Assembly (NCBI GenBank): GCA_028284905.1
Contig: JANQQU010000093.1
Span: forward strand, 62,001-126,000
Direction of reading: 5' to 3'
Origin: Calditrichia bacterium
GTDB taxonomy: Bacteria; Calditrichota; Calditrichia; RBG-13-44-9; J075
DNA: 64,000 nucleotides
The translations under genes and the position numbers were made by a program. The notes under the pieces were generated by a model. The model saw nothing but the letters and a program-made list of their open reading frames with translations, was not told where the DNA came from and did not search any database. Positions within the stretch are counted from its first letter, which is position 1, and every line of letters begins with the position of its first letter. Positions 3,148-24,012 of the stretch are shown here, in pieces.

Positions 3148-3250
3148 GAGTGTGTTCTTCTGCCTAAATAAATATTCAACTAAGTATCTGCAATACTAAC
3201 AATCTTTTTGTGTTACAACTTTTTTTAAGTGCCGGAGGGGAAATAAAACA

Positions 3251-3297: not shown

Positions 3298-3338
3298 GAC
3301 ATTTATTATGTGTTTAACATATGGCTTGGATAAAAGCA

Positions 3339-3650: not shown

Positions 3651-3668
3651 AACTACCTCCTTGGTTGA

Positions 3669-3682
3669 GTCCTTTCGGACTG
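3669..3682 (-). promoter_or_regulatory. GNRA-tetraloop hairpin in the hpf leader
   Basis: On the minus strand this reads AGTCC-GAAA-GGACT, a perfect 5-bp stem closed by a GAAA (GNRA class) tetraloop. It ends about 10 bases before the GGAGG of hpf, so it may affect ribosome access or RNA stability. A role is inferred only. Confidence 0.4.
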
Positions 3683-3742
3683 ATTCATGAAACAACTCTC
3701 AGATAATGTAATAATTCCTGCTGTTTTCTTGAGCTCCTTTTA

Positions 3743-6596: not shown

Positions 6597-6632
6597 GCAA
6601 ATAAATGATCCTAAATTATTGGAGAAAAAATT

Positions 6633-7280: not shown

Positions 7281-7433
7281 GATACCCATATTTAGTTTTG
7301 AAAAATTACTCAATACCGGCGGCAAAATCTGCTGCTGGTTACTGCTGTTAGCTCACCAAATCTCCTTTGAATTCATTTGATTTATATTTCATCTTCGTTT
7401 ATCTTAGCAGGCATTTCATAAGCTAAGGTAAAT

Positions 7434-8324: not shown

Positions 8325-10033
8325 GGCGCACCCCAAATTTTTTCCCAATCCGCGATACCTGCAAGCATATGGCAAATACCGGCAATTCCCAGTACCGCTA
8401 AACAACCAACGACATTATACCACAGGTATGAAATCGTGGAAAAATTGTAGCAAAGCAGCACGATCAATTCTGCTGCAATGGCTGCGGAAAAAACCACGCT
8501 GCCTTTGATAGACTTGTTAAAAAAAGCCAGTATAAATATGCCTAACACTGGTCCGTAAAATAAGGAGCCAACAACATTAACTGCCTCAATTAAAGAGCCC
8601 ATCTGGTTGGCGAATAATGAAAATCCGATTGCAACACTTCCCCAAAAAATAGTGGCTAACCGCAAGGCGAGCAGATAATGCCGGTCGGAGCCATCCTTCT
8701 TGATTAAGCGTTGATACCCATCATAAACCGTTGTCGTTGCCAGTGCATTGAGAACTGCGGCGGCAGCGGCCATCGCTGCAGAGAGAATTGCCGCGACTAT
8801 TAATCCTACCAGTCCAGCGGGTAAATGTCCGGTAACAAAGTGAAGGAATATAAAGTTCGTATCATTGCTATCGGCAGATGGGTTGGAGAGGTGCAATAAT
8901 TCTGCGGCATCTTCCCGTACTTGTTCACCGCGTTGCACGACGCATCTCAATTGACTGCTATAATCATTAATTCTTCGCTGGTCATCCGCCCGTAGGGATG
9001 ATATCAGGGCATCGATAATCAATTGCTTTTCATTAAAAATACTCTCCTGGTGCCTGCTGAGATCATCATACTGCGTAGCATAATTACTATTCTTCATTAG
9101 CGTAGCAGCTGTTGGATTAAAATTGAGCGGCGTGGGATTAAACTGATAAAAGATAAAAATCAGCACACCTATTAAAAGGATGAACGCCTGCATGGGAATT
9201 TTCACCAGGCCGTTGACGAGCAAGCTCATCCGACTGGCCCGAATGCTGCTCCCGGAGAGATAGCGCTGGGTCTGCGATTGGTCTGTGCCAAAATATGCCA
9301 AAGCGAGAAAAAGCCCTCCGATAAGCCCGGACCAGATATTATAGCGTTCTTCCCAATTGAATTCAAAATTCAGTGGTGTCAGGCGGCCCATCTTTTCCGC
9401 AGTGTAGATAACTTCTCCGAAGGACAACTCTGCCGGCAAGAGGGAAAGAATTATACCGAAAACAATTAATAAGCTGAAAAATATCAATCCCATCTGAATG
9501 CTGTGTGTATGCTTAACAGCTCTGGCGCCGCCGAGGGCGGTATATAGGATTACCAGGAATCCGGTAATTATGCAAGTCGCGGAGAGATCCCATCCTAGAA
9601 TTGCAGAGAAAATCAGGGATGGCGCGAGGATTCCCAGGCCGGCAACCAGACCACGCTGAATCAGAAACAAGCAGGTGCCTAAGATTCGGGTCTTCAGATC
9701 AAAGCGCACTTCCAGGTACTCATAAATTGAGTATCCTTTCAGCTTTTGATAAACCGGAATCGCGATCATCGATATTAAAACCATTGCGATTGGTAATCCG
9801 AAGTAGAGCTGTAAAAACGCTACGCCTTCGTTATAGGCGAGGCCTGGCAGGGATAAAAAAGTAATCGCGCTGGCCTGAGTTGCCATTACCGATAGGGTGA
9901 TGGTATGCCAACGCGTTTTCCGGTTTGCCAGCAAATAATCATCGACATTTCGGCAACGACATCCTTTCCAAATGCCGTATCCGACAATCGCCAGTAGCAC
10001 TCCAATTAATATCGTCCAGTCTAAAATTTGCAA
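8312..10033 (-). CDS. Sodium:solute symporter (SSS family)
   Basis: A 573-residue transporter with about 13 membrane segments. Family signatures include the N-terminal DDYLLANRKTRWHTITLSVMATQASAITFLS region and the GALGGAR-like TALGGARAVKHTHSIQ segment. A polar insert at about 335-400 (NEKQLIIDALISSLRADDQ) interrupts the membrane core. Similar inserts occur in Bacteroidota-type SSS proteins whose substrates are sugars, sialic acid or unknown solutes. The reading frame appears to begin with TTG at 10033, because no in-frame ATG is available before the first helix. The substrate cannot be assigned. Confidence 0.88.
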   Translation of the reverse strand: MQILDWTILIGVLLAIVGYGIWKGCRCRNVDDYLLANRKTRWHTITLSVMATQASAITFLSLPGLAYNEGVAFLQLYFGLPIAMVLISMIAIPVYQKLKGYSIYEYLEVRFDLKTRILGTCLFLIQRGLVAGLGILAPSLIFSAILGWDLSATCIITGFLVILYTALGGARAVKHTHSIQMGLIFFSLLIVFGIILSLLPAELSFGEVIYTAEKMGRLTPLNFEFNWEERYNIWSGLIGGLFLALAYFGTDQSQTQRYLSGSSIRASRMSLLVNGLVKIPMQAFILLIGVLIFIFYQFNPTPLNFNPTAATLMKNSNYATQYDDLSRHQESIFNEKQLIIDALISSLRADDQRRINDYSSQLRCVVQRGEQVREDAAELLHLSNPSADSNDTNFIFLHFVTGHLPAGLVGLIVAAILSAAMAAAAAVLNALATTTVYDGYQRLIKKDGSDRHYLLALRLATIFWGSVAIGFSLFANQMGSLIEAVNVVGSLFYGPVLGIFILAFFNKSIKGSVVFSAAIAAELIVLLCYNFSTISYLWYNVVGCLAVLGIAGICHMLAGIADWEKIWGAPYWE

Positions 10034-10147
10034 ATGGCGCTGCTTTCTTTCTTCATGAGTTGGGGCAATCGATTATCTAAGGTGTATTCGCTGTAATATC
10101 TTTATCTTCTTTAAGCTGAAAATGGATTTTTGCTGACCGCTTATAAA

Positions 10148-10190
10148 CCGCCAGGGGGCGGCACGTGAGGGGACGCACCACCCCCGGTCG
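10148..10190. other. GC-rich hairpin region between symporter and DUF2911 genes
   Basis: CCGCC (10148-10152) pairs with GGCGG (10157-10161), and a run of G near 10154-10172 can pair with the C-run near 10180-10185. It is much more GC-rich than its surroundings and sits downstream of the DUF2911 gene (minus strand). There is no T-run on the minus side, so it is not a canonical terminator. Confidence 0.3.
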
Positions 10191-10224
10191 GAGGAGATAA
10201 GTGATACCGGAGAGAAATGATTGA

Positions 10225-11268
10225 TTACAATTCTGCGAGGATGTTTTCGATGCGGGACTTATGTCCCTGGGGATCCTCTGCGGGTAATTTGGCCAAGGCC
10301 TGTTTGTAGGCTTTTTTAGCCGATTTTTTGTCACCTTTCATTGCCAGTGCTTCTGCATAACTGTCATAAACATTCCAGGAATCAGGGTATTTCTCGACAT
10401 TCATTTTGAAAATTTTCACTGCTTTGTCGAGCTTTTTGTTGTTGACCAATGCATATCCGTATTGGTTTAACATCCACTCCTGATTGGCATACTGAACAGC
10501 GTTATCCATTACTTTTTCCGCTTTGTCCAGGTGCCCACTGGCATTAAGCAATCCGGCTTTAACAAAGTGGTTGCGGAAATTGGCGTTCAGTGCAATGGAT
10601 TTATCTACCCAGCCTAATGCCTCATCCATATGGGTTTTCTTCTGCAGGCAATAATTGGCTGCCTGGTTCAGTTCCTGCCAGGTTGTGCCGGGGTTTGCCC
10701 GAACGGCTGTCATGACGATATTATCGACATCTACATCGATCTTCAGCGGAAGGCGAATCTTCTCCCATTGCAATTCTACGGTTGCGCTATTTTCGCTGCG
10801 ATCCACAAAGGTATAGCTGAGCCATTCCTGGTAATCGCCGGATTGCGGACGTGCCTTTACCCGCACCTGATCTTCTGCCTGCTGGTAGGAGAAACTGCCC
10901 CAGGAAGTAGAATTCTTTGAGAAAATAACCGTAAACTCGTATTTGTCTGGAATCATATGTAATCCATATGTGCCGGCCGGTAAGTCTGTGCCGTTCACTT
11001 TCACCGGATGAGTGAATGAAATGACGGTATTCTCATTTGCACCTGCCCGCCATACCTGACCATACTTCACTAACTGTCCCCAGACAGCTCTCCCTTTTAC
11101 TGCCGGGCTGTGATACACAATGGAAATATCAGTTGAGCCGATTCGCTGAATCACTTCCGAGCGCTGACTGGCTCTGGGAAAATAGGTGCCCTCTGCCAAT
11201 AAGGCACCTGAAAGCAACAGCACTAAAATGACCACGAATCCTCTCGAAACGATTTTGGATACCTGCAT
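10225..11268 (-). CDS. DUF2911 domain protein with C-terminal TPR
   Basis: A 347-residue exported protein. The signal peptide is at 1-25 (IVLVLLLSGALLA-type core). DUF2911 spans about 28-190 and includes the characteristic SPAVKGRAVWGQLV and VWRAGANENTVISF segments and a beta-rich core. TPR-like helices follow at 200-345 (GYALVNNKKLDKAVKIFKMN and similar). DUF2911 has no established biochemical function and is common in Bacteroidota and relatives. The start has GAGGAG upstream. It is separated from the LytTR regulator upstream by a 200-base gap that carries the composite heptamer array. Confidence 0.85.
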   Translation of the reverse strand: MQVSKIVSRGFVVILVLLLSGALLAEGTYFPRASQRSEVIQRIGSTDISIVYHSPAVKGRAVWGQLVKYGQVWRAGANENTVISFTHPVKVNGTDLPAGTYGLHMIPDKYEFTVIFSKNSTSWGSFSYQQAEDQVRVKARPQSGDYQEWLSYTFVDRSENSATVELQWEKIRLPLKIDVDVDNIVMTAVRANPGTTWQELNQAANYCLQKKTHMDEALGWVDKSIALNANFRNHFVKAGLLNASGHLDKAEKVMDNAVQYANQEWMLNQYGYALVNNKKLDKAVKIFKMNVEKYPDSWNVYDSYAEALAMKGDKKSAKKAYKQALAKLPAEDPQGHKSRIENILAEL

Positions 11269-11391
11269 ATAAAGCTCCTCTAATGTTGATTAAAAATTGC
11301 TTGCGAGGGTCTTTACGGGGCGAGTTTCAAAAGGATGACAAGGTTGTGATGGAAAGAAAATTTAGTGATGAATTGCAGGTAGGGGAATTAA

Positions 11392-11471
11392 GTTACTGGT
11401 TACTGGTTACTGGTTTCTAGTTGTTCGTCTTTGCTAAAGCCTAAGGCCTTAGGCCTAAAGTCTGCAGCCTA
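11392..11471. repeat. Composite heptamer array running into the LytTR regulator stop codon
   Basis: Eleven successive 7-base units in one uninterrupted register. They comprise GTTACTG three times, GTTTCTA, GTTGTTC and GTCTTTG, then CTAAAGC, CTAAGGC, CTTAGGC, CTAAAGT and CTGCAGC. The next unit begins with CTA at 11469-11471, which is the TAG stop codon of the minus-strand regulator gene. It contains the perfect 16-base palindrome at 11439-11454. Three different unit families are joined in phase. Confidence 0.8.
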
Positions 11472-12242
11472 GTACTGTGCTTCCGCCAAATACTCACCAA
11501 TTTTCCCCTTATAAGAACGGCCGGAGACAAGCTCATTGCCATTCTTTAGTTTGAAGCGGTATTCATTGGTATTGAGGTAATTTACTTCCGCGATAAAATG
11601 GCGATTGATAATGAAGGAACGGTGGATCCGTAAAAATAGCTGCGGGTTTAATTCGCTTTCAATGGCATTCATTGTCGCCCGATAAAGATAGCTGCCCCGA
11701 TCGGTGTTTAAGTTGAGATAATTACCATCAGCTTCAATCCAAATAATATCCTCCGTGAAGACTTTTATCTGGCGGCCATTTTTCTTGATCTCAAATGCGC
11801 TGAGGAATTCATTCTCTGCCTGTTGAAATTCCCGCATCAGCGACATCAGCTTATGATTGAAACTAGAGGTTTTCTTCAGTTTGATTTGCTCTTTTGCCCG
11901 GGAGAGCGCTTCGTTAAAACGTTCATTGTCGAATGGCTTTAGCAAATAATCGATGGCGTGCACTTCGAAGGCTTTAAGGGCATATTGATCGTATGCGGTG
12001 GCAAAAATGATGAATGGATCGTAATCCAGCTTCAATTTGCCTAAAACGGCGAAGCCATCCATATCCGGCATCTGAATATCCAGAAAGATCAGGTCCGGAC
12101 GTTTTTTGGTAATAAAGCTGATAGCTTCCTTGCCATTGCGACATTCTCCGATAATGGCAATCTCGTCCTGCTCGCTTAGGCGGTTGACAATGCGGGATCG
12201 TGCCAGCGGTTCATCATCTATTACAACAGTTCTTATTTTCAT
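11469..12242 (-). CDS. LytTR-family response regulator
   Basis: A 257-residue regulator of the LytT/AlgR type. The receiver domain has D9 and D10, phospho-acceptor D55 (LIFLDIQMPDMDG) and the conserved lysine in YLLKPFDN. A linker of about 30 residues leads to a LytTR DNA-binding domain (about 150-255) with IIWIEADGNYLNL and FLRIHRSFIINRHFI. Its start overlaps the upstream kinase stop by 4 bases (ATGA), so the two are co-translated. The regulon is unknown. Confidence 0.93.
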   Translation of the reverse strand: MKIRTVVIDDEPLARSRIVNRLSEQDEIAIIGECRNGKEAISFITKKRPDLIFLDIQMPDMDGFAVLGKLKLDYDPFIIFATAYDQYALKAFEVHAIDYLLKPFDNERFNEALSRAKEQIKLKKTSSFNHKLMSLMREFQQAENEFLSAFEIKKNGRQIKVFTEDIIWIEADGNYLNLNTDRGSYLYRATMNAIESELNPQLFLRIHRSFIINRHFIAEVNYLNTNEYRFKLKNGNELVSGRSYKGKIGEYLAEAQY

Positions 12243-13567
12243 CCGATTCCCTCTCCCTGGGCAAGCTGAAACGGAATAACAATGCGGGCGATAAAGCCTT
12301 CCTGGTTGGGAGAAGCAATCACAAATTGAAAATCACCTTTATACATCTCTTTTAAACGCCCCTTTACATTCTTAATGCCAATGCCGGAACAATCCTGAAT
12401 TGATGCCGGCTCGGCAATTCCCTTACCATCATCTTCGACGGTCAGTATCAGACGGTCGCCATCCCGATGACTGGCCACCCGAATTTTTCCGGCATCCGTT
12501 CGCCGGGAGAAACCATGTTTAACGGCATTTTCCACCAGAGGTTGCAGAATCAGATTGGGCACAGCAGCTTTAAGCGTATCCGCTGGAATTTCGTAGACAA
12601 CTTTCAGGCGATCATTAAAACGCACTTGCTCAATGTCCAGATAGCTGCTAATGTATTTGATCTCATCTGCGAGGGGAATTGTATTTCGTTGATCCTGCTC
12701 GAGGATATTACGAAGCAAATGTCCTAATTTGGAGACAACACTTTGCGCATCTTCAATGTTTTTTTCCATCAGCGAAGAAATCGTATGCAAGGTATTAAAC
12801 AGAAAATGGGGATGAAGCTGCATCTTCAGGGCGTTTAATTGTGCCTTGGATAATTCCCGCTCTACCGTCAGTAACTCCAGCTGTTTGCTCCGAAATTGCC
12901 GGTAATAACTAATTGCGATCAGAACTCCGATGATCAACCAATATTCCACAAAGCGACTGATCACACCCGCAGGCAAGCCGGCAGTAACATGACTCATAAA
13001 TTCCGGTGTTAAGGTTAAGTAACCGGAAAGATACATTGGAAAGAAATAAATGAACGTTGAAAAAACCTCATGGAATGCAGAAACCAATACACTAAGAAGT
13101 AGGTGAATGATTTTCTGAGTCCAGCTACCACTTTTATCCAATGGAAACAAGGTAAGTAAATAATAGGTGAGCGGTGTCAGAAATGCCCAAAGGATATAGT
13201 TGGATGCCGTAAACTGGATATTTGCCAGCCAATTAAACGGTTCGGGGGCTCTCCGGGAATATTTAAGAATCATCGATGTATAAGCCATCGCCTCATCTTC
13301 GGAAAGAAATTTCATCAAGGCGTTAAGAAAATCCCGCTCGCCCCAAAATTCCTCGTTTTGCAGCGGTTCCAATTTCGCTGCAATGCTATCCGGCATTCCC
13401 TCTTCTATATAAGAAGTAAAGGAATTTTCGTTTATCTGAAAGCTTTCCCGCTGGCGCATACTGTAGGAAATGAATGCTTGTAATACGAATATGAAGATTA
13501 ACAGCACTGCGGTTAGTAGCACGTAGCGAAAGGGGATAGGTAAAGCTTTAAATCGTTTTTCAGGCAT
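12239..13567 (-). CDS. LytS/YehU-type sensor histidine kinase
   Basis: A 442-residue membrane kinase of the His_kinase (LytS) class. Several transmembrane helices occur at about 15-35, 115-215. The extracytoplasmic segment at about 40-110 is rich in charged residues and may be the sensor. The H-box reads LHPHFLFNTLHTIS near residue 255, followed by an HATPase with NLILQPLVENAVKHGF and DDGKGI. It is encoded immediately upstream of, and overlapping, its LytTR regulator. Such pairs often control envelope or carbon responses; the signal is unknown. Confidence 0.9.
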   Translation of the reverse strand: MPEKRFKALPIPFRYVLLTAVLLIFIFVLQAFISYSMRQRESFQINENSFTSYIEEGMPDSIAAKLEPLQNEEFWGERDFLNALMKFLSEDEAMAYTSMILKYSRRAPEPFNWLANIQFTASNYILWAFLTPLTYYLLTLFPLDKSGSWTQKIIHLLLSVLVSAFHEVFSTFIYFFPMYLSGYLTLTPEFMSHVTAGLPAGVISRFVEYWLIIGVLIAISYYRQFRSKQLELLTVERELSKAQLNALKMQLHPHFLFNTLHTISSLMEKNIEDAQSVVSKLGHLLRNILEQDQRNTIPLADEIKYISSYLDIEQVRFNDRLKVVYEIPADTLKAAVPNLILQPLVENAVKHGFSRRTDAGKIRVASHRDGDRLILTVEDDGKGIAEPASIQDCSGIGIKNVKGRLKEMYKGDFQFVIASPNQEGFIARIVIPFQLAQGEGIG

Positions 13568-13906
13568 CGGTCTCGTATCAGTCCAATATTAGTAATAAAG
13601 TGAAGGCGATTTCTCAGGAGATTGATAAATATCGGTAAGCGGATTAACGCTGGCTGACAAAAAAGATATTAAAAAAATCTCCGGTAATTTCTAAATAATT
13701 TACGTATACCAAGGTAGTATAATAACTGATTTATACGAAAAACAAATTCTGAAGTGACAAAAAGAATTTCTTGGGATACCGCTAAATATTGTGCTTCAGA
13801 AAGCAGCTTTTTTTGAATGTTTGCGGATATTCGGTTATCTTACTTGCGAAACCGGATCTTAATTCATTAAAGCGCAAATTGTAAACTAATTCCGGAGATG
13901 ACAGAA
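13568..13906. other. Intergenic region (339 bases), no gene seen
   Basis: Lies between the divergent LytS-type kinase and a small membrane protein. It is A/T-rich and must contain promoters for both. No repeat array or strong hairpin was recognised. Confidence 0.4.
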
Positions 13907-14260
13907 ATGGAAAAACATGTTCAGATTTTAGGCGGTTTATATATCGCCTTTTCAATTTTAGGAATTTTACTGGGAGCCCTGGCGTTTATCTTAATCGCAG
14001 GTGGGGGATTTCTTTCCGGCGATCGGGATGCGATTATAATTACTTCGTTTGTCGGCGGCATTATCGGGGTGTTTTTAGTTGTTACTTCAATTATTGGTAT
14101 CATTGGCGGAATGGGCTTGCTGAAGCATAAATCCTGGGCAAGAGTCCTGGTTTTAGTGCTTAGCTTCCTGAATTTGCTCAGTGTTCCCTTCGGCACACTG
14201 TTGGGGATTTATGGCATTTGGGTACTCTTCAATGATGAGGTTACGGAAGTGTTTGCCTGA
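13907..14260 (+). CDS. Small multi-pass membrane protein, unknown function
   Basis: A 117-residue hydrophobic protein with three or four predicted transmembrane helices (GLYIAFSILGILLGALAF, then VGGIIGVFLVVTSIIGII, then VLVLVLSFLNLLSVPFG). The ATG at 13907 has GGAG 9 bases upstream. An in-frame ATG at 13898 is possible, but it sits directly against that GGAG. It resembles generic DUF4064-like small membrane proteins; no function can be given. A nested stem-loop follows the gene. Confidence 0.7.
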   Translation: MEKHVQILGGLYIAFSILGILLGALAFILIAGGGFLSGDRDAIIITSFVGGIIGVFLVVTSIIGIIGGMGLLKHKSWARVLVLVLSFLNLLSVPFGTLLGIYGIWVLFNDEVTEVFA

Positions 14261-14301
14261 TTTTCCGTTCATCCTTTTCCCCAAGTGTATAAAAATCTAT
14301 G

Positions 14302-14378
14302 CGAATATCGTAACACCCGAAAGCTTTGTTTAATAATGTGTTAGCAAAGTTAATCTTAATCAGATGCTACGATATTCG
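14302..14378 (+). terminator. Long-range stem-loop, possible terminator
   Basis: CGAATATCGTA (14302-14312) pairs perfectly with TACGATATTCG (14368-14378). A shorter CTTTG/CAAAG stem lies inside the loop. The distal arm is followed by a T-rich stretch, so termination of the small membrane protein gene is plausible, but the 55-base loop is unusually long for an intrinsic terminator. Confidence 0.4.
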
Positions 14379-14442
14379 TTTTCCTGTTTTATCACCTTCC
14401 CGGTCTATTATATCACAATTTTTTTGCTACTGGATTTTTTGC

Positions 14443-14485
14443 TTGACAAGTGACTACAAATGTAATACAATTGACTACAGATGTA
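14443..14485 (+). promoter_or_regulatory. blaI promoter with two BlaI/MecI-type operators
   Basis: A -35 box TTGACA (14443-14448) and a -10 box TACAAT (14466-14471) are separated by 17 bases. Two palindromes match the BlaI/MecI consensus TACANNTGTA: TACAAATGTA at 14455-14464, inside the spacer, and TACAGATGTA at 14476-14485, over the expected start of transcription. Their centres are 21 bases apart, two helical turns, so two repressor dimers would bind the same DNA face. This supports autoregulation of the blaI operon. Confidence 0.8.
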
Positions 14486-14522
14486 ATCGATGTGGGGTTG
14501 AATTAATCGGGTGGTCAATAAG

Positions 14523-14921
14523 ATGACAAAAGATATTAACATTACCGAAGCCGAATGGGCGATCATGAAAGTGGTTTGGGCAGCGCCTTCTGTGCCGGCA
14601 AGTCACATTGTGGCAGCACTGGCAGATGAGAAAGACTGGAATCATCGCACAGTGAAAACGCTATTGGCGAGATTGGTGAAAAAGGGCGCGTTGAATTATT
14701 CTCAGGAAGGGAATCGCTATCTTTACAGTCCGGCACTCTCCCGTGATGAGGCAGTGCTACAGGAAAGCCAATCTTTTATCGAAAGGGTTTTCGATGGTAT
14801 ATCTCTGCCGATGCTCGCTCAACTGGTGAAAAAAACTCGCATGTCTCCGGAAGAAATTGAGGCGCTGAAAGCCTTGTTAGCAAGCAAGGAAAAGGAATAC
14901 GATGATGACGGCGATGCTTGA
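14523..14921 (+). CDS. blaI: BlaI/MecI/CopY-family repressor
   Basis: A 132-residue winged-helix repressor. It opens with the family-typical DINITEAEWAIMKVVW, followed by a recognition helix region (HRTVKTLLARLVKKGAL) and the wing NRYLYSPA. The C-terminal helical dimerisation part contains the segment usually cleaved after BlaR1 signalling. The ATG at 14523 fits family starts; a GTG at 14511 is also in frame. Two operators in its own promoter indicate negative autoregulation. The gene overlaps the M56 protease gene by 20 bases, the classic blaI-blaR1 arrangement. Confidence 0.92.
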   Translation: MTKDINITEAEWAIMKVVWAAPSVPASHIVAALADEKDWNHRTVKTLLARLVKKGALNYSQEGNRYLYSPALSRDEAVLQESQSFIERVFDGISLPMLAQLVKKTRMSPEEIEALKALLASKEKEYDDDGDA

Positions 14922-16476
14922 GCCCATCGAATGGTTTGGCAGCTGGCTCCTGGAAAATTCCTGGCAGGCTGCGATTCTCGCCATTTTGATTTTCGCAGTG
15001 CAATTGATTTTTCGCCGCTGGTTAACACCATTTTGGCGCCATGCCCTTTGGTTACTGCTTATCCTTAAATTACTGATTCCGGTCGGCCTTGAGAGCAATT
15101 TCAGCATTTTTAATGTTGCATCGCCAGACTATCTTTTCCCGGTGACTCAATCTGGCAAAGAAGTTAAAAACGGCGCTGCAGCAGAAGATATTTTTAAAGA
15201 GCCGGTGCCGAAAATATCCATCCAGTCTTTACAAGCTCAAGGCTTTCGCTGGACGCCACTACGGATATTTATGGTCGTCTGGCTCCTGGTAAGTCTTGGC
15301 TTATTCGGGCGAATCCTTTATCTGAATAATCGCCTGCTATCCATTACCCGAAAAACCCGTCCATTGATAGATAAAGATATTCTCAATCTTCTTGAAGATT
15401 GTAAACCACGTCTGCGCATCTTTATGCCGATCAATGTTGTCATTACCAATCAGATTGCGACACCGGCAATGCTCGGTTTTATCCGCCCGCGTCTACTTAT
15501 TCCGGAATCAATGCTCAATGCTTTTACGCGGGAAGAGTTGCGTTGCATTTTTCTCCACGAGCTTGCTCATATCAAACGGATGGACATTGTTAGCAGTTGG
15601 TTGATGACCTTCCTGCAGGTGCTTCATTGGTTTAACCCGCTCATTTGGCTGGCCTTCCGGCGGATGCGGGCAGATATGGAAATTGCCTGTGATGCAGCAG
15701 CGCTCTCGGCAGCAGAAGCGCCACAGCATCGTAATTATGGAGAAACGATTATTAAGGTATTATCGCTGGCATCAGCGCCGCAGGCAGTGCCAGGAATGGC
15801 AGCCATTTTGGAAGACAAACAGGATTTGCAACGCCGTATCAAATTAATCGGAAATCCCTTTCAATATAAACGTCATCATACTGTCGCCGGCTGGTTACTC
15901 CTGCTCTTGCTTAGCTGCACTGCATTTACCGATGCCAGTATTGCCATGCATCCGGAAAAAATTCTCGACAAATTTAAAACAGCCTATGACCAGCGAAATT
16001 TAAGAGAATTGATGGCGTTGTATGCAGAAGATGCCGTCTACCGGGAATTAAATGAAAGCGGTGAGCCGATCAATAAATTAAACAAAATGGATGTTTCAGG
16101 TATCTATCGCTACAGCTTTCTGGATAATCCACAATTCAACTATTACGATGTTCGGGTGAAGAACGATACCGTTCTCTTTACTGGTGCCTTCCGTAACAGC
16201 CTTTTTGAAATTATCGGTATGCACGAGCTGAAAGGGAAGGGAACATTCGTTTTGGAAAATGGCAAAATTATCGCTGCGACCTGGCAGGAGAATATCGCGT
16301 TGCGTAATCGTCGTGTCGCCATTTTCGATACTTTCCTGAACTGGCTGAAAACAGATCGGCCGGAGACATATAAAGAGATGTTTGGCAACGATCTTTTTAT
16401 TCATCATCGCGCGAAGGGAGATGCCGTGAATGAATTGTTTTTGGAGTGGATTGCGAGTAGGATTGGTGGGCAGTGA
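14902..16476 (+). CDS. BlaR1-like M56 metalloprotease with C-terminal NTF2/SnoaL-like domain
   Basis: A 524-residue membrane protease. N-terminal transmembrane helices lie at about 20-60 and 120-140. The zinc motif HELAH at 219-223, with downstream E260 (RADMEIACDAAA), marks the M56 peptidase that cleaves BlaI-type repressors. A helix at 328-346 then places residues about 353-475 outside the membrane. That part reads as an NTF2/SnoaL-like fold (LDKFKTAYDQRNLRELMALY, then a beta-rich core), not the penicillin-binding sensor domain of BlaR1, so the signal is probably not acylation by a beta-lactam. A long heptamer array starts within its stop codon. Confidence 0.85.
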   Translation: MMTAMLEPIEWFGSWLLENSWQAAILAILIFAVQLIFRRWLTPFWRHALWLLLILKLLIPVGLESNFSIFNVASPDYLFPVTQSGKEVKNGAAAEDIFKEPVPKISIQSLQAQGFRWTPLRIFMVVWLLVSLGLFGRILYLNNRLLSITRKTRPLIDKDILNLLEDCKPRLRIFMPINVVITNQIATPAMLGFIRPRLLIPESMLNAFTREELRCIFLHELAHIKRMDIVSSWLMTFLQVLHWFNPLIWLAFRRMRADMEIACDAAALSAAEAPQHRNYGETIIKVLSLASAPQAVPGMAAILEDKQDLQRRIKLIGNPFQYKRHHTVAGWLLLLLLSCTAFTDASIAMHPEKILDKFKTAYDQRNLRELMALYAEDAVYRELNESGEPINKLNKMDVSGIYRYSFLDNPQFNYYDVRVKNDTVLFTGAFRNSLFEIIGMHELKGKGTFVLENGKIIAATWQENIALRNRRVAIFDTFLNWLKTDRPETYKEMFGNDLFIHHRAKGDAVNELFLEWIASRIGGQ

Positions 16477-16589
16477 ACAGTTATCAGTTGACAGTTATCA
16501 GTGAACAGTTATCAGTTGACAGTTATCAGTGAACAGTTATCAGTGATCAGTGATCAGTTATCAGTGATCGGTTATCGGTTGACATTGAT
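16471..16589. repeat. 17-unit heptamer array starting in the M56 gene stop codon
   Basis: Seventeen consecutive 7-base units with no indel. They are built from CAGTTAT, CAGTGAA, CAGTTGA and CAGTGAT variants and drift to CGGTTAT, CGGTTGA and CATTGAT at the distal end. The first unit (CAGTGAA) contains the TGA stop codon of the M56 gene at 16474-16476. The first units alternate as a higher-order 28-base repeat. Confidence 0.85.
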
Positions 16590-16621
16590 TTAGTGGTGAG
16601 AGTAGTGGGGATGCAAAAATT

Positions 16622-16649
16622 ACGAACAACGAACAACGAAGAACGAGGA
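16622..16649. repeat. 4-unit heptamer array forming the ribosome site of the VOC gene
   Basis: Units ACGAACA, ACGAACA, ACGAAGA and ACGAGGA. The last unit supplies the GAGG ribosome-binding sequence 7 bases before the ATG at 16655, so the array has been co-opted for translation initiation. The unit is the GAACAAC family in another phase. Confidence 0.7.
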
Positions 16650-16654
16650 ACATT

Positions 16655-16987
16655 ATGGATTTAGGAGAATTTTCAATCAGTTTGGCAGTGAAGGATATTA
16701 AGGCATCGCGGGAATTTTACAGTCATCTTGGATTCGAATCTATTGGTGGCGACGAAACGCAGGGCTGGCTGGTGTTGCAAAACGGCAAGGCAAAGATTGG
16801 TTTATTTCAGGGAATGTTTGAGGAAAACATCATCACTTTTAATCCTAAAGATGCCCGTAGTATCCAGAAGCATCTGAAGTCCCACGGCGTTCAGCTCGCT
16901 TCGGAAGCAGATGAAGATGGCAGTGGCCCGGCGCATTTTGCATTGAAAGATCCGGATGGTAACCAAATCCTCATCGACCAATTCTAA
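16655..16987 (+). CDS. VOC-family (glyoxalase/bleomycin-resistance fold) protein
   Basis: A 110-residue single VOC domain with two beta-alpha-beta-beta-beta halves: [23 protein letters not shown] and the C-terminal [21 protein letters not shown] proteins include glyoxalases, dioxygenases and antibiotic-binding or thiol-transferring resistance proteins; the exact role is not inferable. It is the first gene after the array region, 18 bases before the metallo-beta-lactamase homologue, so the two are probably co-transcribed. Confidence 0.85.
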
Positions 16988-17005
16988 ACCGAAAGCAGCT
17001 GATTA

Positions 17006-17770
17006 ATGAAAAAGTTTGTATACATCTTTTTATTGCTAGGCAGTGCATTTCTCTCCGGCCAGGGCGAGTGGCAGAAAATTACCGATGATCTGGACATTCG
17101 CCGCCTTTCTGACCAGATCTGGCAGCATCGCTCTTTTCAGGTAGTTGGCGACATTCGCTTTCCCTCTAACGGATTGCTGGTAGTCGGTGAAGAATCACTT
17201 TTTATGATCGATACTGCCTGGGGAGAAGAATCGACGGATGCGCTGTTGATCTGGATAAAGGAGAAGTTCGGCAAGCCGGTAAAGCAGGCGGTGGTTTCCC
17301 ATTTTCATCCGGATCGGATGGGGGGGATTAATAATCTGCATCAAATAAAAACGGTGGTATTTGCCGGGGAAAAGACTGTCGAATTAGCCCGGGAAAATAG
17401 TCTGCCGCTTCCGGACACATTATTCAAAAGTAGTCAACACTTTGATGTCGATGGCACCAAGTTCGAGGCGTACTATCCCGGTCCTGGTCATTCTCCGGAT
17501 AACATCGTCGTATGGTTCCCGGAAGAGAAACTGCTTTTCGGCGGTTGCCTGATCAAATCTTTGGAAGCGCCAAACCTTGGCTATATCGGAGATGCGGTAA
17601 TCGAACAGTGGGCCGCAACGATGGAAAATCTGAAAAGCCGATACGGGGAAGAGCTCCGCATCGTTCCCGGTCATGGAAAGATTGGTGATGTTGCCTTAAT
17701 CAATCACACCATCGCACTTGTAGAAGCATATTTGGAAAAAAGCAGTAAAACTCTGAACTATAAACTTTGA
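17006..17770 (+). CDS. Subclass B1-type metallo-beta-lactamase homologue
   Basis: A 254-residue protein with a signal peptide (1-18), so exported to the periplasm. The B1 zinc ligands are all present: H99, H101 and D103 in HFHPDRMGG, H162 in YPGPGHSPDNIVVW, C181 in LLFGGCLIKS, and H223 in VPGHGKIGD. The substrate-binding lysine is K184. The PSNGL and DTAW segments also match the family. The asparagine usual at standard position 233 (LGN-DA) is a tyrosine here (LGYIGDA). This is much closer to B1 enzymes such as BcII or CcrA than to generic MBL-fold hydrolases. Catalytic activity is inferred. It lies downstream of the blaI-blaR1-like pair, and its last five codons belong to a heptamer repeat. 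Confidence 0.85.
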   Translation: MKKFVYIFLLLGSAFLSGQGEWQKITDDLDIRRLSDQIWQHRSFQVVGDIRFPSNGLLVVGEESLFMIDTAWGEESTDALLIWIKEKFGKPVKQAVVSHFHPDRMGGINNLHQIKTVVFAGEKTVELARENSLPLPDTLFKSSQHFDVDGTKFEAYYPGPGHSPDNIVVWFPEEKLLFGGCLIKSLEAPNLGYIGDAVIEQWAATMENLKSRYGEELRIVPGHGKIGDVALINHTIALVEAYLEKSSKTLNYKL

Positions 17771-17784
17771 ACGTTGAACTTTAG
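17750..17784. repeat. 5-unit heptamer array spanning the metallo-beta-lactamase stop codon
   Basis: Units ACTCTGA, ACTATAA, ACTTTGA, ACGTTGA and ACTTTAG. The first units encode the C-terminal residues of the preceding protein, and the third contains its TGA stop codon. The array ends just before the AGGAG ribosome site of the next gene. It belongs to the TGAACTC family also seen at 38944-39018. Confidence 0.75.
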
Positions 17785-17795
17785 CAGGAGTAAAC

Positions 17796-18215
17796 ATGGA
17801 AAAAGTACAAGGTATTGGCGGCGTATTTATTTATGCCAACGATCCGGAAGCATTAGCCGCATGGTATACAGAACACCTTGGTATCGAAACGGAGAACTAT
17901 GGGAAAACTTATTATCATGCCTTTGCATATCGGTATCTCGATGATCCCGAGCGGCGAGCGAGCACGACCTGGTCAATCATGCCGGCGAAGAAAAAACCGC
18001 TGCCGAAAGCGCGAAAAGCGATGGTCAATTACCGGGTAGAGGATTTGCAAAAGCTGCTGGATCAGCTAACGGATGCTGGTATCGAAATTGAATCTGTAGA
18101 GGACTACGATTATGGTCGTTTCGCCTGGATCTATGATCCGGAAGGAAATCGTATCGAGCTTTTTGAGGATCATTTCGACTATGCCGAAATGTTAAATGAT
18201 GGGGCTGGAGAATAA
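17796..18215 (+). CDS. VOC-family protein
   Basis: A 139-residue VOC domain: GGVFIYANDPEALAAWYTEHLGIE at the N-terminus and FAWIYDPEGNRIELFED at the C-terminus, the latter containing the usual metal-ligand glutamate. It has no signal peptide. The gene lies 25 bases after the metallo-beta-lactamase gene and overlaps none, with an AGGAG ribosome site. Substrate unknown; glyoxalase-like or small-molecule binding are both possible. Confidence 0.85.
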   Translation: MEKVQGIGGVFIYANDPEALAAWYTEHLGIETENYGKTYYHAFAYRYLDDPERRASTTWSIMPAKKKPLPKARKAMVNYRVEDLQKLLDQLTDAGIEIESVEDYDYGRFAWIYDPEGNRIELFEDHFDYAEMLNDGAGE

Positions 18216-18216
18216 T

Positions 18217-19080
18217 ATGCACCAGAAAAGCAGTCTCTTGTCTTTCCTGGGCATCATTGCACTCATTTTTTTAGCCTGTAATGATACCGCACCGCCGTCG
18301 GAGTCGCCGTTAGAAGCAGAATTTGCCGCCGCCGGCAAGCCTTCTTTTCTGGGAGAAGGGCTGGAGTTCAGATTGTCGGTAAAAAATATTGATACGACAG
18401 CGGCATTCTTTCAGCAACTGGGATTTGCGCCAACGGCTGCCCATCCGGAGGCGCATCCGGTCCGGGCTTTTACCGACGGTAGTATTGTCATTTCTTTGCA
18501 TCAGAAAGATTTCCCTTCACCGACGATCGCTTATTACGAAAGTGACTTAAAAGCGTTGGAAAATGGATTAAAAGCTGGCGCTGTTCCTTATGAAAGCATC
18601 ACGGACAGTGCGGGCGTTCCAGAGGAAATTACCTTCAGCGATTATAACGGGCAACGGTATGTTTGTAATGCTGCAGCGCCGGTGGATCGCCCGGATGTCC
18701 GCCTGGTAATGATGGATCCCACTGGCGCCCGGATGGAAGAACAGACCTTTTCCCGCTGTGGGATGTTTGGAGAATATGCAATTCCCACGGCCGACCGGGA
18801 TAGTTCTGCAGCTTACTGGGCTTCGCTTGGATTCCGGAAAATGTTTGCCAGCAATGTGCCGTATCCCTGGGGAATTTACTTTGACAATCAGCTGGTGATG
18901 GGCTTGCATCAAACGACGGAATTCCAGAATGGCATGATCACTTTTTTCAGTAACCGGGCGGAAGCAGTGATTGCAGAATTAAAAGTGGATGGATATAAGT
19001 TTGCCGCGGAAATAGATCCTGCCAATGCCGTGCTGGAAACGCCAGATGGCATCTATTTAAACATCTTTAACTGGCAATAA
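18217..19080 (+). CDS. VOC-fold lipoprotein
   Basis: A 287-residue protein with a lipoprotein signal (LIFLAC lipobox, cysteine near residue 21), so it is anchored in the envelope. The mature part holds two VOC-like modules: EGLEFRLSVKNIDTTAAFFQQLGF with VRLVMMDPTGARMEE, then DSSAAYWASLGFRKM with VLETPDGIYLNIFNW. The ATG at 18217 was chosen because it has GGAG 6 bases upstream and begins the signal sequence directly. An extracytoplasmic VOC protein is unusual and could bind or modify a small molecule outside the inner membrane; the ligand is unknown. Confidence 0.75.
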   Translation: MHQKSSLLSFLGIIALIFLACNDTAPPSESPLEAEFAAAGKPSFLGEGLEFRLSVKNIDTTAAFFQQLGFAPTAAHPEAHPVRAFTDGSIVISLHQKDFPSPTIAYYESDLKALENGLKAGAVPYESITDSAGVPEEITFSDYNGQRYVCNAAAPVDRPDVRLVMMDPTGARMEEQTFSRCGMFGEYAIPTADRDSSAAYWASLGFRKMFASNVPYPWGIYFDNQLVMGLHQTTEFQNGMITFFSNRAEAVIAELKVDGYKFAAEIDPANAVLETPDGIYLNIFNWQ

Positions 19081-19135
19081 TTTTACTGTTCTGAAACATC
19101 TCTACTTTTCAAAATAAAGGTTTAAAGGAGGCTTT

Positions 19136-19516
19136 ATGGGTAAAGGCATCATTTCCGTTATTGGCGGTTATTTGATTATGGCTGTACTGGTTGTGTTTGG
19201 TTTTGGCGTAATATCATTAGTAGCACCGGCAGATGTTTTTGGTTCCGATGGTATGCAAATGCCGGGCACCACTTGGATAATTATTATCCTGATTATGGGA
19301 TTTTTAGCTGCTGTCGCAGGTGGATTTGTAACTGCCCGCTTTGGCAAAGATGCACCATTTAATACCGGTTCTGCCCTGGTTGGCTTAATCATCCTGATGG
19401 GACTTTTAACCGCATTTTCCACCGGCAATGGTCAGCCGATTTGGTATCAAGTGTTACAGACGCTGCTGGGAGCCGCCGGCGCATGGTATGGGGCGAATTT
19501 TAGAAGGCAGGCTTAA
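19136..19516 (+). CDS. Small membrane protein, unknown function
   Basis: A 126-residue protein with four predicted transmembrane helices (VIGGYLIMAVLVVFGFGVI, IIIILIMGFLAAVAGGF, ALVGLIILMGLLTAF and a C-terminal helix). A strong AAAGGAGG ribosome site precedes the ATG. No known family was recognised with confidence. It is the last gene of the plus-strand cluster that includes the lactamase homologue. Confidence 0.7.
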   Translation: MGKGIISVIGGYLIMAVLVVFGFGVISLVAPADVFGSDGMQMPGTTWIIIILIMGFLAAVAGGFVTARFGKDAPFNTGSALVGLIILMGLLTAFSTGNGQPIWYQVLQTLLGAAGAWYGANFRRQA

Positions 19517-19526
19517 GGTAGTTAGA

Positions 19527-19555
19527 CTAATGGCCTAAAGGTCCACGGCCATTAG
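19527..19555. terminator. Hairpin between convergent genes
   Basis: CTAATGGCC (19527-19535) pairs perfectly with GGCCATTAG (19547-19555) around an 11-base loop. It sits between the convergent membrane-protein and permease genes. It lacks a T-run on either strand, so termination is only possible. Its GGCCTAAAG core resembles the CTAAAGC heptamer family. Confidence 0.4.
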
Positions 19556-19573
19556 CCTGATTAATGATTTCAA

Positions 19574-21964
19574 TTATTCATACTTGAGCGCTTTAATCGG
19601 ATTGGTCAGCGCTGCTTTCACTGCTTGATAGGTGATGGTGCCAATCGCGATAATCAGTGCTGCGATCCCGGCGGCGATCAGGGTCAGCCAGCTGACATCA
19701 ATCCGGTAGGCAAAATTCTGCAGCCAATTGTTCATAATCCAGTAGGCCAGCGGACTGGCCAGGACAATAGCCAGAACGATAAGACGGCCAAAGTCTTTCG
19801 ATAACATCAAAATAATACTACCGACAGAAGCCCCAAGTACTTTCCGGATACCGATTTCCCGGGTGCGCTGTTCCGCCGTAAAGGCAGCCAGGCCAAACAA
19901 GCCCAGGCAGGCAATTACAATAGCCAGTAAGGTAAAAACAGTCAGCAATTGACCGCTGCGGACTTCGGCACGATAAAGCCCTTCATATTCCTGATCGAGG
20001 AATGTGTATTCGAATGGCCGGTAAGGCACTAACTTTGCCCAGACCCGATCGATATGGCCCATCGTAGCAACAATATTCTCCGGGGCAATTTTCACCATTA
20101 AATATTCAAAATTACGGGGGGAAATAAAAAGCGCCAGTGGGCCAATTTCGTTATGCAGCGAACGGAAATGAAAATCCCGGGCAACGCCAATCACCCGACC
20201 CATCCGGTTACCAAGGACATTTAGCCATTTGCCGACAGCCTCCTCCGGCTGCCAGCCGATTCGTCTGGCCAAAGACTCGTTGATGACGTAGTCATATCCC
20301 TTTTCCGGAATAAATGTCTCCTGGAAAGTATTCCCGGCAATTAATTCCAAATCGAGCACACTGGGAAAATCTTTGTCGACGATCCAGCCGGTCGTGGGAG
20401 GATTTTCACCTTCCGGCAAGCCTTCTGCGGCGACGCTGTATCCGCCCATCACTTTACCGGGGATGGAAGAAGAGGCGGTAACACCTAAGACCCCGGCATC
20501 GCGCATTAGCTCGTTTTTAATCGTGGATAAATTTCCGATTGTTTCCCGATCGCCAATCGGCACGATTACCATCTGCTCTTTGGCCAAACCAAGCTTTTTA
20601 TTTCGCAAAAAACTTAATTGACTGTCGACGACCAGGGAACCGACGATTAAAAAGACCGAAACACCAAACTGGAAGACCACAAGTGCTTTGCGGAATAGCA
20701 CAGCGCCCCCGCTTCTTTTTACTTCCCCTTTTAAAACCGCTGCTGGTTGAAATCTGGAAAGGAATAATGCCGGATAACTACCGGCGACGATGCTCACCAA
20801 AAATCCGACAACAAGCACTAAAACTAACACTTCAGGATTATTTATAAAGTTAAAAGAGAGTGTTTTTCCAATGAACAGGTTAAAAGCCGGCAGGAACAAC
20901 TGAACAAGTATTAGTGCCAGTAACATGGAAATGCCGGTAATAATCATCGATTCGCCGAAGAATTGCGATATGAGTGTGTTACGCTGAGCGCCGAGCACCT
21001 TACGCATTCCCACCTCTTTCGCCCGGCGGGAAGATCGGGCCGTTGCCAGGTTCATATAATTGATACAGGCGACAACCAGAATCAGCAAGGCGAGCACGGA
21101 GAAGCCATATATATATCCGATATCTCCCTTTGCCCGGGCACCGCCATCGAGATGTTTGGAATGCAGGTAAACATCGCTTAACGGCTGTAGCTTGACGATT
21201 GGCACCGGATTGCTACCACTCATTTCCTTGGTATATTCTGCAATGCGTTCCGCAATTTTTTTGTTCAAAGCAGCAGTATTGCCGGGAGAATTGGTGAGAA
21301 CATAGGTGAAATAATTGGCACTCCCCCAAATTTCTCTTTGAGACTGACGCAGCGTGGAAAAAGAGGCCATGTAGTCAAATTGCAGGTGCGAGTTTGATGG
21401 TAAATCCGCAACGACGCCGGTAATCTCAAAATCCCGGGTGTTATCTACCTTCAGCGTTTTTCCCAGTGGATTCTCGCTGCCAAAGATCTTACGCGCTGTC
21501 GATTCTGTCAGGACGATCGTGCCGGGTCGGCTGATTGCCGTTTCTGGATCTCCCTGCACAAATGGAAAGCTGAAAATTGAAAACATGGTGGAATCGCCAA
21601 ACATAAAACGGGATTCCTGAAACTTTTTACTGCCATAGCTGACGATGGAAGGACCAAAATTATTGACCTCGAAAACCCGTACCATTTCCGTCACTTCCGG
21701 AAAATCCCGTTTTAACATCGGGCCGACAATCGTCGGGGTCACCGATATTTCCCGGGCCTGGCTACCCAGCTGAAATCCATAGGTGACCCGGTAAATACGC
21801 TCAGCCTTCTCGTGAAAGCGATCATAATTCAGTTCATTCTGCACAAAGAGGAGGATTAACAAGCAACAGGCGATCCCAACGGCCAATCCACTAATACTGA
21901 TTAGCGAATACATTTTACTGTTGCGGATGTTTCGCCAGGCAATTTTCAAGTAATTTCCAAACAT
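19574..21964 (-). CDS. MacB/FtsX-type ABC transporter permease
   Basis: A 796-residue permease with the Bacteroidota-type start MFGNYLKIAWRNIRNSKMYS. An N-terminal transmembrane helix (about 20-40) is followed by a large periplasmic MacB_PCD domain, an FtsX block with three helices near 285-430, a second periplasmic domain, and a final FtsX block near 675-790 containing EIGIRKVLGASV. The two-FtsX layout is usual for this subgroup, which exports antimicrobial or lipid-like substrates or couples ATP hydrolysis to periplasmic events. No ATPase gene is adjacent, so its partner is encoded elsewhere or is shared. A paralogue lies at 44685. Confidence 0.9.
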   Translation of the reverse strand: MFGNYLKIAWRNIRNSKMYSLISISGLAVGIACCLLILLFVQNELNYDRFHEKAERIYRVTYGFQLGSQAREISVTPTIVGPMLKRDFPEVTEMVRVFEVNNFGPSIVSYGSKKFQESRFMFGDSTMFSIFSFPFVQGDPETAISRPGTIVLTESTARKIFGSENPLGKTLKVDNTRDFEITGVVADLPSNSHLQFDYMASFSTLRQSQREIWGSANYFTYVLTNSPGNTAALNKKIAERIAEYTKEMSGSNPVPIVKLQPLSDVYLHSKHLDGGARAKGDIGYIYGFSVLALLILVVACINYMNLATARSSRRAKEVGMRKVLGAQRNTLISQFFGESMIITGISMLLALILVQLFLPAFNLFIGKTLSFNFINNPEVLVLVLVVGFLVSIVAGSYPALFLSRFQPAAVLKGEVKRSGGAVLFRKALVVFQFGVSVFLIVGSLVVDSQLSFLRNKKLGLAKEQMVIVPIGDRETIGNLSTIKNELMRDAGVLGVTASSSIPGKVMGGYSVAAEGLPEGENPPTTGWIVDKDFPSVLDLELIAGNTFQETFIPEKGYDYVINESLARRIGWQPEEAVGKWLNVLGNRMGRVIGVARDFHFRSLHNEIGPLALFISPRNFEYLMVKIAPENIVATMGHIDRVWAKLVPYRPFEYTFLDQEYEGLYRAEVRSGQLLTVFTLLAIVIACLGLFGLAAFTAEQRTREIGIRKVLGASVGSIILMLSKDFGRLIVLAIVLASPLAYWIMNNWLQNFAYRIDVSWLTLIAAGIAALIIAIGTITYQAVKAALTNPIKALKYE

Positions 21965-22368
21965 GCGGTCATCTCCCGGATAAAGATAGATTTTTCTGCC
22001 TTTTTTCTATCAGACAGTGTAATGCCAAAAATGTTCACAAGAAAATTAAAGGAGAGGAAATGGGGCATGAAATTTAGGTTAAAGGAGTAGGATTCTTATT
22101 ATGTGAGTTAACGAAAGCTAAGGCTCCGCTCCCGTTGGTCGCTCATGGTTCCACTCACTGCGGTCGTTGATGGTTGGCCTTCGGCAGGAAAAAAAATAAC
22201 CATTAGCGACCAGCGGGAGCGGAACCATTAGTGAGCCAACAGGCGAACGGAACCTGCGAGCCCCGCGAGCCAACCATTAGCGACGTAAGGAGCGGAATCA
22301 TAAAAAATTAGTGGGTTTACATAGAAAAAAGGAAAGCACAAATACGAACCGGCACCCCAACCGCCTTC
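21965..22368. other. Intergenic region (404 bases) with a large inverted-repeat element
   Basis: Separates the permease and amidase genes, both on the minus strand. It contains no gene. Most of 22120-22300 is a repeated, self-complementary element listed separately. Confidence 0.5.
22125..22296. repeat. Extragenic inverted-repeat element
   Basis: The arms at 22125-22150 and 22198-22223 are complementary at 24 of 26 positions; one of the two differences is a G-T wobble in RNA. A further direct copy of the second arm, with several changes, occurs at 22272-22296. The core motif AACCATTAGCGAC ends in GGAGCGGA. The sequence is GC-richer than its flanks, and it may be a REP-like or MITE-like element. 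Confidence 0.6.
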
Positions 22369-24012
22369 CTAAATCGCATTCTCATAATCACGTTTAAACT
22401 GACGCAATCCGCTGAAAATACCTTCGGCGATTTTTTGCTGGTGGCTATTGGTTTTGATAATCCGGGCTTCGTATTTATTGGTAACAAATCCGACTTCAAC
22501 GAGAATAGATGGCATTGCCGCCCCAATCATCACCCAAAAGCCAGCTTGCTTAACACCGCGATTCTTCATATTCAGGCTGCGCAGACGCTTGGCCATTTCT
22601 TCCTGAACGCCGCTGGCGAGCTGCTCACTTTGTTTCATAAATGCGGATTGCGCCATGGTTGCCAGAATTGCGTTGATTCCCTGGTAATGTTTTTGGGCAC
22701 CGGCGGTTTCGAATTGAATAACGGAGTTTTCCCGGGCAGCAACATTACTTGCTTCTTTGTCTTTGTGGGGACCGAGAATATAGGTCTCAAATCCCTTGGC
22801 GTTGCGATTCCGATTAGCATTCGCGTGGATGCTGATAAATACTTTCGCATTGTTCTCATTGGCAATCTGAGTGCGGCGGCGTAATTCGACAAAGGTGTCA
22901 TCTTTTCGGGTATAGACAACCCGCACGCCAGGCATATTTTTATTGATCAATCGCCCAAGCTTCAGGGCAACGGATAAAACGACATCTTTTTCCTTCAAAT
23001 TGCCGACACCAACGGCACCGGGGTCTTTGCCGCCATGCCCGGCATCGATGACAACTGTATCAATCAGCCAGCGCTTCTTCTCCTGCTCAAGCTGCTTTTG
23101 CAGATCATTGCCGGCGGAGTTATCGACTTGCGATTGATTGGTTGGCTCAGGTAATTCGGAATCAGCTAAATTTTCGTCATAGCGTAAAATAATTACCACA
23201 TCGCGATTGGATTCATCCTGGTAGATGCTGGTAGAGATGGGATTTTTACTCAAGCGAAAACCGATAGAAAGGGTACGATCGAGCAATAAGGCTTTTATTT
23301 CCCGCACCGGGCCCCGTCGCGTGGTATTGTTTAATTCCTCCACATTGGCAGTTGCTCCGTAGAGATCAACATGCAGCCAGTTGTAGCGGGTATTAATGCG
23401 CATTTCATTATCCCGGAACCGCCGAGATGTTTTAATGCGGATGACCGTGCCATTGGATTTCTGCTCGATCACCATGTCCCTGGCATAACCGGTGGTACTG
23501 CGATTTGTGCGATCATAAGAAGAATTATTGCTGACCGGTTTTAGCTCGCTGCTCACACGCAGTTCATGCTCCGTGCTGTTATAAACCAGTGGTAAATTGG
23601 TATAACGTTGTATTAATACGCTGAGATGTTGCACCGGCACAATAATCTCATTTTTCTCCCAGAGGCATTTCATTGGCATTTGAAAGGCTTTATGATCAAT
23701 AATCACAAATGGATTATCGGCGGTTACCACAACCTTGTTTTGGGGAAGATAAATGACCAGTTTACGTTTTTCTTCATTGAAGTAAACGCCATAGCGGAAT
23801 ACGCCGGCAAATGCCTTGGCGCTCATATATGGCGTTTTATTTCGCCACCAGAGGGAAATCTTTTCCGGTGCGGTATTTCCTCCGCGGAAAATAGTTAGTT
23901 TTTCTTGCAGGTTAAAAATCTTAGGGAGGGCTCTGCCGAAGAGTGACTGGGTTTCTACAAGGAGAATGCCGACACTCGGTAATAACTTCTTTAAAAATTC
24001 ACGTCTAATCAT
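22369..24012 (-). CDS. N-acetylmuramoyl-L-alanine amidase (Amidase_3) with AMIN domain
   Basis: A 547-residue peptidoglycan hydrolase that cuts the bond between muramic acid and L-alanine. The N-terminus has a twin-arginine-like signal (RREFLKK at 3-9, then a hydrophobic stretch). A copper-amine-oxidase-N-like domain (about 45-155) and an AMIN domain (about 175-280) precede the Amidase_3 domain (318-540). The latter has zinc ligands H326 (DAGHGGKD), E341 and H396 (ISIHANAN) and catalytic E506 (LVEVGFVTN). Tat export is known for some E. coli amidases, so the signal is plausible. It probably acts in cell separation. Confidence 0.92.
   Translation of the reverse strand: MIRREFLKKLLPSVGILLVETQSLFGRALPKIFNLQEKLTIFRGGNTAPEKISLWWRNKTPYMSAKAFAGVFRYGVYFNEEKRKLVIYLPQNKVVVTADNPFVIIDHKAFQMPMKCLWEKNEIIVPVQHLSVLIQRYTNLPLVYNSTEHELRVSSELKPVSNNSSYDRTNRSTTGYARDMVIEQKSNGTVIRIKTSRRFRDNEMRINTRYNWLHVDLYGATANVEELNNTTRRGPVREIKALLLDRTLSIGFRLSKNPISTSIYQDESNRDVVIILRYDENLADSELPEPTNQSQVDNSAGNDLQKQLEQEKKRWLIDTVVIDAGHGGKDPGAVGVGNLKEKDVVLSVALKLGRLINKNMPGVRVVYTRKDDTFVELRRRTQIANENNAKVFISIHANANRNRNAKGFETYILGPHKDKEASNVAARENSVIQFETAGAQKHYQGINAILATMAQSAFMKQSEQLASGVQEEMAKRLRSLNMKNRGVKQAGFWVMIGAAMPSILVEVGFVTNKYEARIIKTNSHQQKIAEGIFSGLRQFKRDYENAI

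Follow-up and report, generated by a model that had tools for sequence, protein, structure and literature searches.

Described systems close to the locus treated here include blaI-blaR1 and mecI-mecR1 of staphylococci and Bacillus, in which a repressor and an M56 protease with a penicillin-binding sensor serve a serine beta-lactamase or PBP2a, together with a BlaR1 homologue of Mycobacterium tuberculosis that lacks the penicillin-sensing domain (PMC9834060). The present locus lies in a 64,000-nucleotide stretch of a Calditrichia bacterium genome (contig JANQQU010000093.1, positions 62,001 to 126,000; hereafter the window) and comprises blaI, an M56 protease gene, a gene for a subclass B1 metallo-beta-lactamase (B1) and three genes for vicinal oxygen chelate (VOC) proteins, all on one strand in an open reading frame (ORF) check. 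Like the staphylococcal and Bacillus systems, it has a repressor, an M56 protease with equal motif spacing and TACANNTGTA-type operators; unlike them, it has a different target gene, and its BlaI reads Q-L where theirs reads N-F. Its real peculiarity is the missing penicillin sensor: judged from its sequence, the M56 protein falls short of a full BlaR1, and a SnoaL/NTF2-like domain takes the sensor's place. The M. tuberculosis homologue has been described without an equivalent sensor domain (PMC9834060), whereas the window protein bears this SnoaL-like one. The features of the locus are as follows.

14443 to 14471, plus strand: sigma-70-type promoter, TTGACA-17-TACAAT, 11 of 12 consensus positions, the top match within 13500-20000
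14453 to 14466, plus strand: BlaI-type operator 1, ACTACAAATGTAAT, inside the promoter spacer and abutting the -10 hexamer
14474 to 14487, plus strand: BlaI-type operator 2, ACTACAGATGTAAT, 21 bp downstream of operator 1
14523 to 14921, plus strand: BlaI/MecI-type repressor (PF03965, E 1.3e-33; alignment of relatives)
14902 to 16476, plus strand: BlaR1-type M56 membrane zinc protease, 524 aa (PF05569, E 3.1e-64)
15946 to 16473, plus strand: predicted C-terminal SnoaL/NTF2-like domain of the M56 protein, assigned through homologues
16471 to 16590, no strand: 7/14/28-bp tandem repeat (CAGTTAT) within the gap between the M56 and VOC1 genes
16655 to 16987, plus strand: VOC1, glyoxalase/VOC-fold protein (PF00903, E 5.8e-10)
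17006 to 17770, plus strand: subclass B1 metallo-beta-lactamase with a probable signal peptide (family profile, model and tree)
17796 to 18215, plus strand: VOC2, glyoxalase/VOC-fold protein (PF00903, E 3.9e-11)
18196 to 19080, plus strand: VOC3, VOC-type protein, probably an exported lipoprotein, overlapping VOC2

The sensor region of the M56 protein

The M56 protein carries the motifs H219ELAH, E260xxxD and R311R312, i.e., an HExxH...ExxxD gluzincin core, and its spacings (41 for H219-E260, 92 for H219-R311) are the same as those of H201-E242 and H201-R293 in Staphylococcus aureus BlaR1 (reference positions from PMC9834060). Against the profile blaR1_generic it reaches 183.5 bits, under the 400-bit cut-off, and the match covers only profile positions 10-321 of 585, with about 320 N-terminal residues of the protein; the genome's six other M56 proteins score 22-105 bits. 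Profile searches for a penicillin-binding (class-D-like) sensor returned no PF00905 or class D match in the window M56 protein. As a control, the true BlaR1 of another locus gave PF00905 at E 1.5e-33 in the same kind of search. An earlier note on this DNA had described a BlaI/BlaR1-type pair upstream of the B1 gene; both members are indeed present, but the absence of the sensor from the second had gone unnoticed.

In a search with residues 349-524 of the M56 protein, a free-standing lipoprotein from the same phylum (L144) matched at E 1.4e-5, and the alignment to this lipoprotein and to a second one (L145) extends into the helical tail. L144 is a SnoaL_2 protein above the Pfam cut-off (35.6 vs 27 bits), and L145 is alike. 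The domain of the M56 protein reaches no more than 18 bits against SnoaL_2, so its assignment rests on these linking homologues. With the sensor swapped in this way, direct acylation by a beta-lactam is not expected, and what the M56 protein senses is probably something else than penicillin bound to it directly.

Exchange of M56 tails is common here, since the tails differ among the genome's remaining M56 proteins and in that of a second genome of the phylum (G026). The window's own genome holds six further BlaI/M56 pairs (L002-L007), with M56 tails of TonB-C, M23 peptidase, HEAT-like and coiled-coil type. The G026 pair (L134:4395-7023) ends in a GyrI-like small-molecule-binding domain, has three operator-like promoter sites, of the same type as those of the window, ahead of its blaI and has no B1 gene nearby. 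In the M56 tree, the window protein groups with G026 and with L032 and L119, two loci taken up below (91/86, 81/87), a grouping that is suggestive only. In both genomes that hold the closest relatives of the window B1 gene, the gene immediately preceding B1 encodes a DUF4440/SnoaL-type lipoprotein (L012:6485-6979 and L135:4976-5470). A shared origin of the window SnoaL domain and the L012 gene was considered but found no support in pairwise comparison.

Promoter, operators and co-transcription

The repressor scores 116 bits against PF03965 (Penicillinase_R; cut-off 22.6). Its ORF is listed from a GTG at 14511, and the ATG at 14523 is the best start by alignment to relatives; a BlaI tree gave the window protein no clear placement. 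The promoter of blaI itself holds two perfect copies of the ACTACANATGTAAT operator at a distance of 21 bp, with the TACANNTGTA-type motifs at 14455 and 14476. The 8.55-Mb genome has just three exact copies of ACTACANNTGTAAT: two precede the window blaI, and the third precedes a different blaI, on contig 71. The operator pair is beyond chance, and autoregulation of blaI is well supported by these predicted sites. A wider BlaI regulon defined by the motif was rejected, as one-mismatch sites were no commoner than those of a reversed-pattern control.

VOC1 and VOC2 have Pfam matches to Glyoxalase (PF00903), while VOC3 has no Pfam match and is linked to them by VOC1, which matches it at E 2e-10; the earlier count of three VOC proteins thus stands by Pfam for two and by this link for the third. 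In an NCBIfam search, all three fell below the bleomycin and fosfomycin family cut-offs. In having a gene of the VOC superfamily after B1, the locus recalls blaNDM-bleMBL, in which a VOC-type bleomycin-binding gene stands beside blaNDM; it differs in these sub-threshold scores, and the adjacency of B1 and VOC genes is not kept in other B1 loci. The intergenic gaps after VOC1 are 18, 25 and -20 bp, and the one that separates VOC1 from the M56 gene is 178 bp. Searches of the latter found no promoter, terminator or second operator. The common strand, the short gaps and the lack of a promoter or terminator in the 178-bp gap are the grounds for reading the genes as an operon. Because the operators stand only before blaI, control of the B1 gene by BlaI is possible but would require read-through across this gap. 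The tandem repeat at 16471-16590, built of CAGTTAT/CAGTGAT units, occurs nowhere else in the window.

The B1 enzyme

The product of 17006-17770 matches PF00753 (Lactamase_B) and scores 259.1 bits against the NCBIfam equivalog NF033088.2 (bla_subclass_B1), whose cut-off is 200. All six zinc ligands are present (Zn1: H99, H101, H162; Zn2: D103, C181, H223), as are K184, the equivalent of K224, and N190. An AlphaFold model made with 30 aligned B1 relatives has a predicted local distance difference test (pLDDT) value of 94.8, and of the solved structures the B1 enzyme of Pontibacter korlensis (6xfr) fits it best, at 1.0 Å, followed by CcrA at 1.3 Å. The window enzyme shares the subclass B1 fold and zinc site with these two and with VMB-1, at 35-41% identity, and is set apart from them by branching with L012 and L135. 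At the level of sequence and modelled fold, the assignment to subclass B1 is firm. The zinc ligands and K184 listed in the earlier note were verified, and its placement of the protein in B1 held up against profile, structure and tree. Its suggestion of an environmental ancestor of resistance loci found no support: identity to mobile B1 enzymes is 33-40%, and in the B1 tree the window enzyme groups with L012 and L135 (93/84), apart from VIM, NDM, IMP and VMB. The two non-B1 metallo-beta-lactamase rows of this tree have branches of great length (4.3 and 8.2), in keeping with a place of the window enzyme among B1 enzymes. The deep branching order is weak.

One survey found that imipenem was hydrolysed by 18 of 21 predicted B1 genes (PMC5637372). 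Within the phylum, B1 relatives at E <= 1e-30 occur in four of 40 genomes, spread over different tree branches; on this distribution, the idea that the B1-BlaI linkage was passed down vertically there was rejected. No B1 genes were found in viral contigs. In two Acidobacteriota genomes, a B1-type domain and a GH113-like glycoside hydrolase domain share one ORF (L013:7860-9701 and L015:7917-9638), hinting at non-resistance roles for some B1 homologues. In a genome of the window's own family (G004), one ORF encodes a sulfatase-modifying-factor (FGE) domain followed by a B1-type domain (L121:4322-5938).

The whole genome contains seven BlaI loci and one B1 gene. A chromosomal site is plausible from the 392-kb contig. 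Recent foreign origin was considered and rejected, since there is no sign of it in base composition (GC 46.4% for the locus, 45.6% for the window). A search of 9000-24000 for RNA elements found none at the gathering threshold.

Other B1 loci with BlaI and BlaR1

A total of 84,980 species genomes were scanned for B1 loci, and the flanks of the 80 best were fetched. BlaI/M56 genes were seen in the flank of one (L032), a lower bound because several of the contigs are short. This locus, from Bacillota UBA8346 (2498-5645), has the order double operator, B1, BlaI and BlaR1 with a penicillin sensor, and another genome from that class (L119, G069; 4875-8105) has the same gene order and likewise the sensor. 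On a Metabacillus dongyingensis plasmid (L127, NZ_OK052578.1; 131-3952), an annotated B1 gene is divergent from BlaI-BlaR1, with operators between. In all three, as in the window, a TTGACA-type promoter carries an operator within its spacer and is followed by another, but here this arrangement stands directly before B1. They differ from the window also in their penicillin-binding (class-D-like) sensor, known for L127 from its BlaR1-family annotation, and in their B1 enzymes, which with two others form a separate clade (98/92).

Since the three share this layout before B1, control of B1 genes by BlaI appears to recur, and linkage of BlaI/BlaR1 to B1 is not unique to the window; the earlier view that blaI-blaR1 pairs serve only serine beta-lactamases or PBP2a was too narrow. 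The most fitting reading of this pattern is that B1 genes became associated with BlaI/M56 modules separately. No published description of BlaI/BlaR1 linked to B1 was found in our incomplete coverage of the literature. On a Sphingomonas plasmid (L132:1752-4680), genes for BlaI, an M56 protein and a metallo-beta-lactamase-fold hydrolase stand in a row, the hydrolase being far from B1.

Proposed mechanism and alternatives

We propose that the locus is a self-repressed inducible unit with a changed sensor that includes the B1 gene by read-through, and we give this roughly an even chance. From the parts present we infer the following course. BlaI dimers on the two promoter operators would repress blaI and the M56 gene, and by read-through the repression would reach VOC1-B1-VOC2-VOC3. 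The M56 protein would act as BlaR1 does, i.e., as a membrane metalloprotease facing the cytoplasm with its sensor outside. The SnoaL/NTF2-like fold often binds small molecules. On meeting its ligand, the outer domain would cause the protease to inactivate BlaI, the operon would be expressed, and the exported B1 enzyme would then hydrolyse beta-lactams. It is possible, if doubtful, that a SnoaL/NTF2-like small-molecule receptor on a BlaR1-type protease controls the B1-VOC operon, in which case the inducer of a carbapenemase-type enzyme would be a non-beta-lactam signal or else a beta-lactam that binds without acylating the receptor.

Several observations weigh against the proposed mechanism. 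Even when three mismatches are allowed, neither VOC1 nor the B1 gene is preceded by a BlaI operator, and the 178-bp gap is repeat-rich. At the aligned position of the S. aureus BlaI cleavage dipeptide N-F, the window BlaI has Q-L; other BlaI proteins have Q-F or S-F there. No BlaI/M56 genes were seen near the B1 genes of the closest relatives, L012 and L135, and close relatives of the M56 protein within the phylum occur only in G026, which has no adjoining B1. Lastly, an AlphaFold model of the SnoaL domain alone is poor (pLDDT 55.6) and its structure matches are meaningless, so that the fold rests on sequence homology.

The gap, the missing operator and the unconserved B1-BlaI/M56 linkage, along with the seven BlaI loci for a single B1 gene, are also what the main rival draws on: two independent units, in which the operator-promoter serves blaI and the M56 gene only, and VOC1-B1-VOC2-VOC3 is a separate operon, constitutive or otherwise controlled, that stands there by chance. 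The uniform strand, a gap in which neither a promoter-like site nor a terminator was found, and the independent finding of BlaI-linked B1 genes elsewhere argue the other way, and we put the chance of two units well below even.

A response of the locus to peptidoglycan fragments, also raised by the earlier note, is possible by analogy. In its specific form, cell-wall damage caused by beta-lactams would free a fragment that loosens BlaI, with the M56 protein only assisting. BlaI/MecI of other species binds gamma-D-Glu-m-A2pm or gamma-D-Glu-L-Lys, upon which the operator complex dissociates (PMC3305447), and the M. tuberculosis BlaR1 homologue is likewise without a sensor domain (PMC9834060). The window M56 protein, however, has an outer domain of another type and an intact protease core, and ligand binding by the window BlaI would be an extrapolation from other species; we regard this route as unlikely. 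That the B1 protein has another natural substrate, the locus being a detoxification or stress unit with the VOC proteins and not a resistance one, agrees with the three VOC genes around it, the fusions of some homologues to GH113-type or sulfatase-modifying-factor-like domains and the lack of a typical beta-lactam sensor, but is quite improbable given the intact ligands, K184 and N190, the closeness of the model to active enzymes, the activity of most tested B1 predictions (PMC5637372) and the similar VOC neighbour of blaNDM.

Implications

Complete penicillin-sensing BlaI-BlaR1 systems with B1 genes are on record in other bacteria, one of them on the Metabacillus plasmid. If the window B1 gene is under the control proposed here, M56/BlaI signalling would be re-targetable by a swap of the outer domain, and a metallo-beta-lactamase could come to depend on some cue besides direct acylation by penicillin. 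This would bear on the purpose of environmental B1 enzymes and on what triggers BlaR1 homologues that have no penicillin sensor.

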